Positions 13,404 through 17,185 of a stretch of 59,905 bases of DNA are shown one piece after another (the stretch's first letter is position 1; every line of letters begins with the position of its first letter). This DNA comes from an uncultured Porphyromonadaceae bacterium (lineage in GTDB: Bacteria; Bacteroidota; Bacteroidia; Bacteroidales; Muribaculaceae), in NCBI GenBank assembly GCA_947175645.1, contig CAMWNP010000017.1, positions 1-59,905 of the forward strand, read 5' to 3'. Under the pieces are notes generated by a model, which had not been told where the DNA came from, made no database searches, and saw only the letters and a program-made list of their open reading frames with translations. Both the position numbers and the translations under genes were made by a program.

Positions 13404-13546
13404 TGAACCTCCAATGAATATGATGCGGAAGCGGATGTGACCGGCAATTCGGAAGAAATGATATCCATATTTATCGATTTCAGGAAGTTCCTCTCTTTTG
13501 TCTGCAATCTGATCTACTATTTACATCCCAATTTATATCTCCGATT

Positions 13547-13888
13547 TCATGTCACACAGTACGGGATCGTCATGCGGGCGGTGTTGTCGTAGAGGTTCAG
13601 ACCTGACTGGCTCATCCAGTGGTTGCCTATGTGGAGGTGTTCGGTCACGGGAGTGAGGTTATTGGTGCCATCCGCTTTGTAGTCGCAGGGGAGGATATAG
13701 GGGGTGCCTGTAGGATAGAGTCCGGTGCGCTGCACGGTGGCACCCTTGTCATCCACCACTGCCATAACGGAGCCCTGACGGTTGCGCAGACATTGATAGT
13801 GTTCGCCTGAGGTCAGATCGTAGTAGCCGGTGTAGGTGTTCAGACGTAGCCGGTCTACGATATACTTTGTATGTCTGCGTCTATTCAC
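13547..13888 (-). pseudogene. Truncated Rhs core fragment, copy A
   Basis: This is a piece of an Rhs/YD-repeat protein core. It contains GYYDLTSGEHYQ, then RNRQGSVMAVVDDKGA and YDNTARM. It has no ATG start, no toxin tip and no N-terminal region. A frameshift falls just at the conserved ARMxDPxL motif: another frame reads on as DDPVLCDMKSEI before stopping. Its core is about 95% identical to copy B at 16637-16911. The only start available to the open frame is a GTG overlapping the stop of the preceding secreted-protein gene. Probably non-functional, but it could serve as a recombination donor. Confidence 0.8.
13572..13846 (-). repeat. Direct repeat copy A (Rhs core)
   Basis: This 275-base segment aligns without gaps to 16637-16911, with about 14 differences. 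A central block of 168 bases (13623-13790) is identical to 16688-16855. The repeats are in the same orientation, so recombination between them would delete the toxin and immunity-like genes in between. Confidence 0.9.
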
Positions 13889-14478
13889 TTTTCTTTTAAA
13901 TCATCATACAGGCTATACTTTGAATAGTTTACCCTAAACTTAAACTCTTTATATACCTTTGGTTGGCGTGGATTTAGTTTCATGTCACTCTTATTTACCA
14001 CCAGAAACGTATCTTTGTTATGAACAAAAAAACCGCTGAAACTATCAATTTTGTTGTTTCCTGGTTCAATTCCACAGTGATTGTCTCCAATCAAAAAAGA
14101 ATATCGTTTAGGCTTATTATCTTTTAATGATTTGATATATTTTAAAATTTTTCTGAATTCTTTATCTGTAGGTACTTCCAATTGTGGCATTTTTATTGTT
14201 ACATACCTATTGACGGCGTAGAAATATTTACGCGATTTCTCATTTCTATAGGGCAAGGTGTTTTGGACGCTGTCCACTTTAATCCTACTCCCTGAAACGG
14301 TCACATCCGCCGGGAGATCTGCCAACAGACTATCGATATATTTTTCTGTTTTTCCGGCAAGTTCAAATTCATATCTTGAATCAAAATATCGATTGTATTT
14401 ATTGGAAAAACTGCTGCTTATAGTTATTACAGACAAGCATACTGACAATGATAGTAAGAAACCTTTTACGTTATTCAT
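13885..14478 (-). CDS. Secreted protein of unknown function in Rhs island
   Basis: This 197-residue protein starts MNNVKGFLLSLSVCLSVI, a likely Sec signal peptide. The mature part is rich in Lys, Tyr and Asn and contains one conserved-looking pair (NHCGIEPGNNKID). No family is recognised. I chose the ATG at 14478; the frame opens with a GTG two codons earlier. Its base composition is more AT-rich than flanking core genes, consistent with horizontal transfer. It follows the lipoprotein gene by 13 bases and overlaps Rhs fragment A. A periplasmic immunity or orphan accessory role is plausible but unproven. Confidence 0.7.
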   Translation of the reverse strand: MNNVKGFLLSLSVCLSVITISSSFSNKYNRYFDSRYEFELAGKTEKYIDSLLADLPADVTVSGSRIKVDSVQNTLPYRNEKSRKYFYAVNRYVTIKMPQLEVPTDKEFRKILKYIKSLKDNKPKRYSFLIGDNHCGIEPGNNKIDSFSGFFVHNKDTFLVVNKSDMKLNPRQPKVYKEFKFRVNYSKYSLYDDLKEK

Positions 14479-14491
14479 AATCACTCAAATT

Positions 14492-15130
14492 TTAACTTTG
14501 TTTTTCCCTGGATTTTAAATAAACATCCAAACCTTCGTCTTCACTTAGCAGTTCACATCTTCCATCGATTATCCTGAACGTAACATCCCAGTAATCTATA
14601 TATCCTCTCAGTACTACTATTGCTTCTTCTGCTTCTTCTGCTTCTTCTGCTTCTTCTGCTTCTTGTGCAAAATCATGGAAGTTCTCAGGTTTACATTTTG
14701 GGAATGATTCAACTTTAGAAGTTTTCACCATACAATAGTAATCATTGTATGTAAAATATCCCTGATAACTCCATGATATAATATAATCTCCGAAGACAAA
14801 ACGAACAAAGTCATCAGACTGGTAATGAAACATCTCCATCATAATGGGATGTTCCGGCCCTTTATCTATAGTGTTAGTCACTTTCAATGATTTTAGTAAC
14901 GCCTCTAAAAACATGCCATGTCCGCTCAGGTTTAATTCCGGAAGTTGTAGATTATTTGAATGTTTAACTTCGTCTGAGTTGCCCTTAATTGAACTTGTAT
15001 CTGATTTTTCAATTGGAGTTTTATTTTCAATTGGAGTTTTATTATTGTTATTTGAACATGCGAGAAAATTTAAACAAAGACTGCATAACAGCATCTTTAA
15101 AAGTTGGTTTGTAAATGCTTTCATATTCAT
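14492..15130 (-). CDS. Lipoprotein with EEA tandem repeat, Rhs island
   Basis: This 212-residue protein has a lipobox signal peptide (LCLNFLACSNNNN; Cys near residue 25) and should be a lipoprotein. A duplicated KTPIEN segment follows the lipobox, encoded by an 18-base tandem repeat. Near residue 157 there is a run of EEA units encoded by a 9-base tandem repeat. No known domain is recognised. The start codon overlaps the stop of a decayed Rhs fragment, so it seems to have been placed behind an earlier Rhs gene, where immunity genes normally sit. AT-rich relative to the core genome. Confidence 0.75.
   Translation of the reverse strand: MNMKAFTNQLLKMLLCSLCLNFLACSNNNNKTPIENKTPIEKSDTSSIKGNSDEVKHSNNLQLPELNLSGHGMFLEALLKSLKVTNTIDKGPEHPIMMEMFHYQSDDFVRFVFGDYIISWSYQGYFTYNDYYCMVKTSKVESFPKCKPENFHDFAQEAEEAEEAEEAEEAIVVLRGYIDYWDVTFRIIDGRCELLSEDEGLDVYLKSREKQS
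14621..14665. repeat. 9-base in-frame tandem repeat
   Basis: Four copies of TGCTTCTTC plus one TGCTTCTTG encode EEA units in the lipoprotein. The unit is a multiple of three, so slippage would change the length of the acidic run without shifting the frame. Confidence 0.9.
15006..15041. repeat. 18-base tandem duplication
   Basis: Two perfect copies of an 18-base unit (TTTTCAATTGGAGTTTTA) duplicate the KTPIEN segment just after the lipobox cysteine of the lipoprotein. Confidence 0.9.
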
Positions 15131-15276
15131 TTGGAATTAACCCTGTTGGTGGTGATGAGTTTGCTGAAAGTGTGGGTGCATTTCAGCAATGTGCCGTCAG
15201 GAGAGTACACGTTGTTTATGATGTTTCCCTCAACATTACTCCGTATGACCGACTCCGATCCATTTGCCACTCCTCA
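15127..15276 (-). pseudogene. Decayed Rhs remnant preceding the lipoprotein gene
   Basis: The open frame without a start codon reads through SVIRSNVEGNIINNVYSP and DGTLLKCTHTF before stopping at 15127-15129. The VYSPDGTLLK stretch is typical of YD/Rhs repeats in Bacteroidota. The stop overlaps the ATG of the lipoprotein gene. It looks like the residue of an older Rhs gene that once lay upstream. Confidence 0.6.
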
Positions 15277-15385
15277 GACCCTCAAAACGAACCTCCGCTG
15301 CGTAGCGTTTATGCCTGTTCTCTGCATTACAACAAATATTGCCGAGCATCATCAGCACACCAAAAAGGGTTATATATTTCTTCAT
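15236..15385 (-). CDS. Small putative secreted peptide (49 aa)
   Basis: The ORF starts MKKYITLFGVLMMLGNICCNA, which looks like a signal peptide with possible cleavage after NA, and ends SGKWIGVGHTE. It overlaps the decayed Rhs frame. It may be the real N-terminus of the lost Rhs gene, separated by a frameshift, or a stand-alone small secreted peptide. It is 17 bases upstream of nothing obvious on its own strand other than the Rhs remnant, so a remnant is the likelier reading. Confidence 0.4.
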   Translation of the reverse strand: MKKYITLFGVLMMLGNICCNAENRHKRYAAEVRFEGLRSGKWIGVGHTE

Positions 15386-15402
15386 GCTTAAAAATTTTAT
15401 AG

Positions 15403-15948
15403 TCAATACAACCCTAGGAAATTCGCTTCAACCTCCTCAAGAAACAGTTTAATGAAATCTTGCATTTCAGAAGTGGTGTCAAGTGATTGAATTTTATTCT
15501 TTAACTTTTCATATTCCAGCATGTCATACTGATTATCTACATCAAATGCATAACCTACTGAACTAGCGAATCTTTCGGTTTTATCCGGATTCAATCTCAG
15601 ATATTCCAACACGAGTAACGGATTAGAATCCAATATTTTCGCCGAGTACTCCGACATCCCTTCCGACAGTGCAGCATCGCTCTTTTCCAGTATTCTGAAA
15701 TAAAGCATTATATTGAATGCGTTGGCAATATCACTATTACGGCGCTGGCAGATCTCATCAAACATATCGAATGTGGCATAATCATCACTTGGGCTAAACA
15801 AACCCTCATAAACTAACCGCGCGGTTTCATTAACCTCTCCGGATTGAAGATATTTCTGCTGCTCCGACACAGAAAAATCATCCCAATAGGGGTTAGCCAT
15901 GCATAATGCCGGGATTAACGAAAGAAGCATAAACATAATAGTATACAT
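15403..15948 (-). CDS. Secreted protein, candidate immunity to the Rhs tip
   Basis: This 181-residue protein starts MYTIMFMLLSLIPALCMA, a likely Sec signal peptide, placing it in the periplasm. The mature part is acidic, Glu/Asp/Leu-rich and probably all-helical (for example EYLRLNPDKTERFAS and FIKLFLEEVEANF). No family is recognised. It begins 18 bases after the stop of the short Rhs gene with the L,D-transpeptidase-like tip, the classic place for an immunity gene. A periplasmic location matches a toxin that would act on peptidoglycan. The immunity role is inferred from position and localisation only. Confidence 0.7.
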   Translation of the reverse strand: MYTIMFMLLSLIPALCMANPYWDDFSVSEQQKYLQSGEVNETARLVYEGLFSPSDDYATFDMFDEICQRRNSDIANAFNIMLYFRILEKSDAALSEGMSEYSAKILDSNPLLVLEYLRLNPDKTERFASSVGYAFDVDNQYDMLEYEKLKNKIQSLDTTSEMQDFIKLFLEEVEANFLGLY

Positions 15949-15966
15949 AATTTTGTAAATTATACG

Positions 15967-16989
15967 TTAAGGAACAAGGTATTGAGTATTGTCCGAAGTT
16001 GGTGTTTTTTCTTTCTTTATCAAATCATCTGTTACTATTACCTTTCCCGGTATTTCATTTACATCATTAGATTGTAATTCATCCGTTATTGACTTCATTT
16101 TTTTTATATCTTTATCATACGCTCTGATACATCCTTCTGTTCGTTTTAATATTGGATTTTTATTTTCTTCCCATTTCCCCGTTTTAGAATTATAGACCTC
16201 TTGACGTCCGCCATGAATACGTATCAGGCTTCTTCCTGTCTCTATTATTTCGCCTGATTCACCAACCATATTTAGTCTATGGTTAGGACCATATGAGACA
16301 CGACTTTTCCCAGATATCCAAGGCAATTTATCTGGTATATCATATACTCCAAGAGGAGTATCGCCATATTCCAAATATCTATTATGATTAGTTTCTTTCT
16401 TTCCTTCTACTCGAACATCAAATCTGAATAATTCTTTACCCTTATGATCTGTGAGTACAGCAACACCATAACCATATTCACTTCTATCTTTATAAACATG
16501 AACCGTTACATCCCACAATCCTAATGGATCTATTTTATTTGCGAAGTTTGAACTGCAATGGACATAGTGATTATTTTGAGGGAATTTAAACGCATATTCA
16601 TCAACAGATTTAAATTCGCAGAGGACTGGGTCATGCATGCGGGCGGTGTTGTCGTAGTAGTTCAGACCGCCGTAGCCCATCCAGTGATTGCCTATGTGGA
16701 GGTGTTCGGTCACGGGAGTGAGGTTATTGGTGCCATCCGCTTTGTAGTCGCAGGGGAGGATATAGGGGGTGCCTGTAGGATAGAGTCCGGTGCGCTGCAC
16801 GGTGGCACCCTTGTCATCCACCACTGCCATAACGGAGCCCTGACGGTTGCGCAGATACTGATAGTGCTCGCCGGAGGTCAGATCGTAGTAGCCGGTGGAG
16901 GTGTTCAGACGGAACGATTTGTTATCAGCCTCAAAGTTGCCGTAGAACGAACACCCTTCGGTGACCGAGCGGTTGGAATATTTTTTCAT
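15967..16989 (-). CDS. Short Rhs protein with L,D-transpeptidase-like toxin tip
   Basis: This 340-residue protein has an Rhs core remnant at residues 1-158, ending in the DPLGL junction (154-158) that normally separates Rhs cores from polymorphic toxin tips. The tip (159-340) shows DTPLGVYDIP near residue 210, then IRIHGG (H259), and RTEGCIR with C287 and R289. This matches the HG...(S/T)xGCxR active site of YkuD L,D-transpeptidases, known to cut or cross-link peptidoglycan. T6SS effectors such as Tlde1 use a related fold. No signal peptide or secretion domain is present. A strong promoter lies 32 bases upstream, so the shortened form is likely expressed. A secreted candidate immunity gene follows. 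The fold call is by motif only. Confidence 0.75.
   Translation of the reverse strand: MKKYSNRSVTEGCSFYGNFEADNKSFRLNTSTGYYDLTSGEHYQYLRNRQGSVMAVVDDKGATVQRTGLYPTGTPYILPCDYKADGTNNLTPVTEHLHIGNHWMGYGGLNYYDNTARMHDPVLCEFKSVDEYAFKFPQNNHYVHCSSNFANKIDPLGLWDVTVHVYKDRSEYGYGVAVLTDHKGKELFRFDVRVEGKKETNHNRYLEYGDTPLGVYDIPDKLPWISGKSRVSYGPNHRLNMVGESGEIIETGRSLIRIHGGRQEVYNSKTGKWEENKNPILKRTEGCIRAYDKDIKKMKSITDELQSNDVNEIPGKVIVTDDLIKKEKTPTSDNTQYLVP
16637..16911 (-). repeat. Direct repeat copy B (Rhs core)
   Basis: Same-orientation partner of 13572-13846, located in the expressed short Rhs gene. The 168-base block 16688-16855 is identical to 13623-13790, which suggests recent duplication or gene conversion. Confidence 0.9.
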
Positions 16990-17020
16990 GGCAAGAGAGA
17001 AATGATTCGTCAGTGTTTGG

Positions 17021-17051
17021 CAAATATATGGAATTTCTATCTAACCTGCAA
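17021..17051 (-). promoter_or_regulatory. Promoter of the short Rhs gene
   Basis: On the minus strand a TTG (17049-17051) lies 20 bases before TATATTTG (17021-17028), a near-perfect Bacteroidota promoter. The predicted leader is about 24 bases. Confidence 0.6.
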
Positions 17052-17185
17052 GTTTTCCGCGTATTTTGAGGTTTTTCATTGCCCGGGAGCCGTTAGCCGG
17101 TTGAGAGTGGGATTGAGAGCAGGCTGAATCTTTTTGAACCTTTGAACCTTTTGAAGAAAATTGTTGAAAATAATCTGTGTAAAGT

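Follow-up and report, generated by a model that had tools for sequence, protein, structure and literature searches.

Polymorphic toxins with Tox-LD-peptidase tips (H, S, C) and RHS repeats were listed in 2012, and the passages of that survey on this class named Bacteroidetes among the lineages, predicted damage to the cell wall and described linked immunity genes, with a subset of the proteins secreted or membrane-bound (Zhang et al., PMC3482391). We analysed a short Rhs gene with a tip of this kind in a window of 59,905 nucleotides, meaning the whole stretch of contig CAMWNP010000017.1 from an uncultured Porphyromonadaceae bacterium. The gene was located on the minus strand at 15967..16989 and encoded 340 amino acids (aa), in agreement with the open reading frame (ORF) given in an earlier note on this DNA. 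We considered the locus a probable orphan module of the Rhs toxin/immunity type, and the tip of its toxin would be a cell-wall enzyme with the L,D-transpeptidase (LDT) fold. It shared the LD-peptidase tip and the RHS part with the toxins described in those passages (PMC3482391). The window copy differed from them in being short and orphaned and in having a start codon and a promoter-like site, and its neighbour had no Pfam match. The novelty which the earlier note had implied for such a tip in Bacteroidota was not upheld, because the 2012 survey had already catalogued it.

Three other systems were compared with the locus. Tlde1 is an effector of the type VI secretion system (T6SS), and the passage on its H...(S/T)HGC motif gives 14-17 residues in it (PMC9638812). 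The H...C motif was common to Tlde1a and the window tip, and the LDT fold to Tlde1a and the model of a relative. In contrast to Tlde1, the window tip was carried on an Rhs core, the distance from H to C was 28, and a T6SS was not found in a VipB search. In the parts of the literature that describe them, orphan CdiA-CT/Rhs-CT modules usually lack translation starts (PMC3150448, PMC3967940). As in these modules, a displaced tip and a putative immunity gene lay behind a conserved core that could recombine. The window copy differed in its ATG and its promoter-like site, and its head was repeated on three contigs. The promoter-bearing head with a start codon was an unusual departure from the published modules, as far as those parts describe them; no literature search was aimed at short Rhs heads of this kind. 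Since such modules usually have no starts, the question arose whether orphan tips with an extracytoplasmic target can be safely transcribed and translated. The TANFOR polymorphic toxins of Bacteroidetes have diverse C-terminal tips and a proposed link to the type IX secretion system (T9SS) in the passages concerned (PMC7073777). Their N-terminal carrier differed from that of the window type, for which three full-length relatives started with DUF6443. For Bacteroidota, the locus supplied a specific case of an Rhs tip that probably attacks the wall, and it came with relatives of full length, catalytic residues that can be tested and candidate families of immunity proteins.

Tip domain and catalytic residues

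A YkuD-type domain was assigned to residues 183-298 (16096..16443, minus strand) from a Pfam match, an alignment and the fold modelled for the relative L045. H259 (codon 16213-16215) and C287 (codon 16129-16131) were located within this domain on the same strand. The YkuD motif has the general form HG...S/TxGCxR, and the window tip carried the catalytic H...(S/T)xGCxR motif as H259 and T284-E-G-C287-I-R289, exactly where the earlier note had placed it in the translation. The window tip was aligned with seven intact relatives, giving 8 rows, and a broken relative from genome G345 was excluded from all alignments. H259, T284, G286, C287 and R289 were unchanged in 8/8 rows, and the reading of the earlier note thereby withstood the refuting test which it had set on H259 and C287. 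The invariant positions of the alignment included D57 T58 P59, G81 P82 N83, H106 G107 G108, T131, G133 C134 and R136. The H-to-C distances in the 8 rows were 28 (window), 27, 21, 20, 18, 16, 15 and 15. The distance of 28 residues, which had caused concern in the earlier note, was correct, but the range of 15-28 among the relatives answered that concern; the long spacing in the window was therefore attributed to a loop insertion.

The Pfam family YkuD (PF03734) matched residues 183-298. The complete protein scored 21.7 bits and the isolated tip 22.8 bits, slightly less than the cut-off of 23.4. The scan of relatives comprised five, with L061 and L063 outside it, and four of them (L040, L045, L046 and L047) passed. 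The proposed check by hidden Markov model was thus positive for most relatives and just short for the window tip. L045, which was 39% identical to the window domain, was used as a proxy for the fold. Its best model matched LDT-fold structures including Tlde1a in a Foldseek search, which indicated the LDT fold for L045. The Pfam scores, the conserved motif and this model together supported the YkuD-type tip of the earlier note. Judged by its sequence and by the model of the relative, the window tip probably belongs to the YkuD type, with an L,D-transpeptidase fold and predicted activity on stem peptides.

Several results weighed against this assignment. The window tip was slightly below the PF03734 cut-off, and the fifth relative scanned, L041 (the same gene as L039 and L049), had no Pfam YkuD match. 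The window tip alone gave only 6.1% in a profile comparison with YkuD. In this set of profile comparisons, eight of the ten YkuD matches were used, and L072 (from the window) and L073 (22.8 bits alone) were excluded. Structure prediction, which the earlier note had also proposed, gave a poor model for the window tip (pLDDT 44.8). For L045, five models were obtained; a single one was confident, at 81.4, and the others reached 60.8, 34.6, 33.0 and 32.5. The Foldseek TM-scores for L045 were 0.43-0.52, with E <0.001 for one match only.

A PDB sequence search with P0001 returned two IpaB chains at E 0.033-0.034, which were discarded as chance. With the profile A1, the top PDB match was a helicase at E 0.29, and LDT chains appeared at E 1 to 1.3. 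NCBIfam MCR matches were rejected, with scores far below the cut-offs.

Shared head and chimeric joint

Short Rhs copies were present on three contigs of the source genome (G000), and these are called the window, C3 and C5 copies. A promoter-like site, TTG-N20-TATATTTG, lay at 17021..17051 on the minus strand, and we take it to follow the Bacteroidota consensus. Both boxes fell within the same block of ~105 bp ahead of all three copies. The description of this promoter as near-perfect in the earlier note was fair as to the boxes. A sigma-70 scan omitted the site because it seeks another consensus. The motif taken alone was weak evidence, with 9 occurrences on both strands of the window, where 40 simulations under a first-order Markov model gave 2.15 (sd 1.7). 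The promoter-like block and the ATG were common to the three copies, and the short Rhs may be transcribed and translated.

The head (16641..17095, minus strand) consisted of the ~105 bp of upstream DNA with the promoter-like site, the start codon and ~117 codons of Rhs core. The upstream ~105 bp and ~43 codons were common to the three short genes, at 85-100% per 40-column window and mostly at least 95%, and the head was kept at 95-97% on three separate contigs. A stretch of 133 bases of head DNA occurred at 3 places in the source genome, and in 40 other genomes nothing was found beyond one 21-bp match in G022. The dN/dS values of the head copies (0.093/0.350 for window/C5) were not used as proof of selection, because the head region is a mosaic and carries constraint that stems from full-length genes. 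The C3 head copy (L044 7786-7925) started ~70 bp past a tRNA-Met gene.

The gene began within the Rhs core, since the core of G003 copies was matched from residue 6 on. Identity of the Rhs part to the two G003 copies was 66% and 59%. As a named domain it was weak (TIGR03696, 22.5 bits, cut-off 32.5). The N-terminus had no signal-peptide-like features: its hydropathy maximum was 0.07, versus 2.05-2.72 in the three full-length relatives. These values came from a hydropathy measure and not from a trained predictor. The gene was thus a short Rhs fragment without an export part and homologous to the full-length Rhs core, as in orphan Rhs-CT/RhsI modules. The full-length G003 copy was tipped by a Toxin-JAB1-like domain (19.8 bits, cut-off 21).

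The earlier note had assigned 158 residues to the Rhs core with a DPLGL junction. DPLGL was found at 154-158, but the core common to other copies stopped near codon 117, at ~16640. Near this point the window copy departed from every other copy compared, while the C3, C5 and G003 copies remained alike for ~40 codons further. The GC content fell at the joint from 52.3% (16641-17095) to 34.4% (15967-16640). The window and C3 copies were identical in each 40-column window from 16960 to ~16640, and the C5 copy left the window type near 16850. A core remnant at 13.5 kb (13543..13846, minus strand), 92% identical in DNA to the head, was a mosaic of two core types. It followed the window/C3 type from 16840 to ~16700 and then the C5/G003 type. 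On these comparisons, the window gene is a chimera of an AT-rich tip fused to an Rhs core near codon 117.

The other short copies carried different ends. In the C3 copy, ~17 tip codons were followed by a stop. The C5 copy (L003 1501-2586) had the same head and another tip, called type II, with HRTN...SSGC. This tip scored 21.6 bits with Pfam YkuD, below the cut-off, the two type-II tips of the locus L047 had no Pfam match, and the type-II profile reached 51% with YkuD. Therefore, the LDT nature of the type-II tip was likely but less certain than that of the window (type-I) tip. Both intact tips behind the head were LDT-like (2/2), in two subfamilies. A single family of type-I and type-II tips was not claimed, since the profile comparison gave 1.7%. 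The type-II tip occurred in 7/398 genomes of the family, source genome included, and its H...GC motif was found by pattern in 3/7 further loci. Two proteins were encoded after the short C5 gene; both had signal-like starts and looked SH3-like by eye, and the first had no Pfam match.

Downstream genes and alternative explanations

A gene for a protein of 181 aa started 18 bp past the Rhs stop (15403..15948, minus strand). It had a signal-peptide-like N-terminus (hydropathy maximum 2.52) and no Pfam match. By its position and its signal-like start, we considered it a putative cognate immunity protein. The immunity family of the relatives united the downstream genes of 6/7 relatives, with a weak link for G565; some gene starts in these comparisons were set by eye (L045, L046, G438 and G565). 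Membership of the 181-aa protein in that family was rejected as a claim after two shuffle tests failed to show it and hhalign gave 0.5%.

Further downstream, a remnant of 118 bp (15269..15386, minus strand) was 89.8% identical to L003 2602-2719 and derived from the 5' end of an immunity-type gene, the one behind the short type-II-tipped Rhs gene at C5. An Rhs core scrap was read by eye at ~15130-15258. Two orphan immunity-like genes followed, both on the minus strand. One encoded 212 aa with a lipobox-like start by eye (14492..15130; profile 15.3 bits, 0/2000 shuffles, best pairwise E 0.003), and the other encoded 199 aa (13885..14484; profile 18.7 bits, 0/2000 shuffles). Both belonged to the family of genes that come after JAB-type tips in G003/G004. 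No JAB tip was observed beside them (13885-15130). The 212-aa protein contained an EAEEAEEAEE run.

In an orphan module of this kind, transcription from the promoter-like site would yield the tip in the cytoplasm, where it may be harmless because there is no peptidoglycan. The downstream protein would protect the periplasm from neighbours delivering the same tip on full-length Rhs. Tip and immunity would be swapped by homologous recombination through near-identical stretches of the Rhs core. The head and the 13.5-kb remnant, for example, shared 305 bp at 92%, and such stretches would make this exchange possible. Pgp2 and Bd1075 are L,D-carboxypeptidases. In the periplasm of a target, the tip would act on the stem peptide at its D-Ala4 end, either by cleavage as an L,D-carboxypeptidase or by exchange as a transpeptidase, and this attack would weaken the wall of the target.

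Results on the neighbours and heads also counted against this explanation. The score of the 181-aa protein with the immunity family of the relatives was reached by 155/3000 and 77/2000 shuffles, and the 325-aa neighbour in G324 was outside that family. The window and C3 heads showed 2 differences in 360 bases, too similar to distinguish selection from recent copying.

A second explanation, which overlaps with the first and does not exclude it, is that the promoter serves the immunity genes, which would form an operon with the short Rhs frame as a mere carrier at its 5' end. The closeness of the 181-aa gene and the two orphan immunity-like genes on the same strand suited it. In addition, E. coli EC93 makes an orphan immunity protein and apparently not the orphan toxin, according to the passage on this strain (PMC3150448). 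However, the tip motif and the frame were intact, and the 118-bp remnant and the Rhs scrap separated the 181-aa gene from the next immunity-like one. We regarded this explanation as a serious possibility, though not a probable one.

It was rather unlikely that the locus was debris. In this reading, a full-length Rhs gene would have been lost by deletion except for a piece that kept promoter and start by accident, the three copies would be recent duplications and the tip would be decaying. The scraps at the locus, the early stop in the C3 copy and the in-frame TAG in the G345 relative were consistent with decay. The draft assembly G000 yielded no close full-length Rhs, and other matches were ~30% identical. 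However, frames and active-site motifs were intact in the window and C5 copies, the genes next to them had signal-peptide-like starts, and the head was retained on three contigs.

An extension of the orphan-module reading was doubtful. The head, with promoter, start, ~43-117 core codons and no export signal, may be a duplicating or mobile element that spread to three sites and is expressed there, so that incoming tip/immunity pairs can dock onto it. Tips acting on peptidoglycan only would be tolerated there because they are inert in the cytoplasm. If so, the cell would maintain a live store, itself transcribed, of tips that attack the wall and of their periplasmic immunities.

It was very improbable that the gene encodes a short effector which is self-sufficient and, like Tlde1, delivered by a T6SS. 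Although the model of the relative matched Tlde1a, VipB was not found in the source genome (in a search that detected only E. coli among 14 controls) and the full-length relatives were DUF6443/Rhs proteins with signal-peptide-like starts.

Relatives and secretion setting

The T6SS setting suggested in the earlier note was not supported by these results, and the T9SS protein SprA was present in the source genome (2716.7 bits). A search for TssC detected none of its controls and was uninformative. A T9SS link of Rhs export was considered possible. The gene directly upstream of a full-length LDT-tipped Rhs (L041 6643-7728) had a T9SS sorting-like tail (TIGR04183, 17.5 bits, cut-off 23). A G003 neighbour (L042 652-1821) was similar to this gene by eye.

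The tip was rare. It was found in 4/398 genomes of the host family, presumably Muribaculaceae, one of the four being broken by an in-frame stop, and in 3/395 genomes drawn from the phylum; the source genome was included in both counts. The broken relative was that of G345, in which the in-frame TAG lay close to the end of a contig. On GTDB contigs, 43 stretches matched in a pattern scan and were reduced to 5 loci, and two of these (L048 and L049) were the contigs of G012 and G324 over again. Among 17 and 593 pattern-matching stretches on viral contigs, there was no relative. In two members of the host family, the same tip was borne by Rhs proteins of full length (1081 and 1103 aa), both of which had DUF6443 and a hydrophobic N-terminus. 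In these proteins the tip was at the C-terminus of an RHS protein, as in Tox-LD-peptidase toxins, and the window copy retained a stub of the Rhs core.

A 189-aa antisense ORF lay over the Rhs core (16558-17127, plus strand) and a similar one over the C3 copy (L002 1348-1923). These were most likely a composition artefact. In one Bacteroidales metagenome-assembled genome (L047 672-8141), an array combined a type-I LDT tip with the two type-II tips and with another that was Peptidase_M91-like (24.4 bits, cut-off 25). Behind each tip stood a gene whose product appeared secreted by eye. At L061 1297-2016, an LDT tip was followed by a tail resembling a bacterial SH3 domain by eye, which would suit a wall target.
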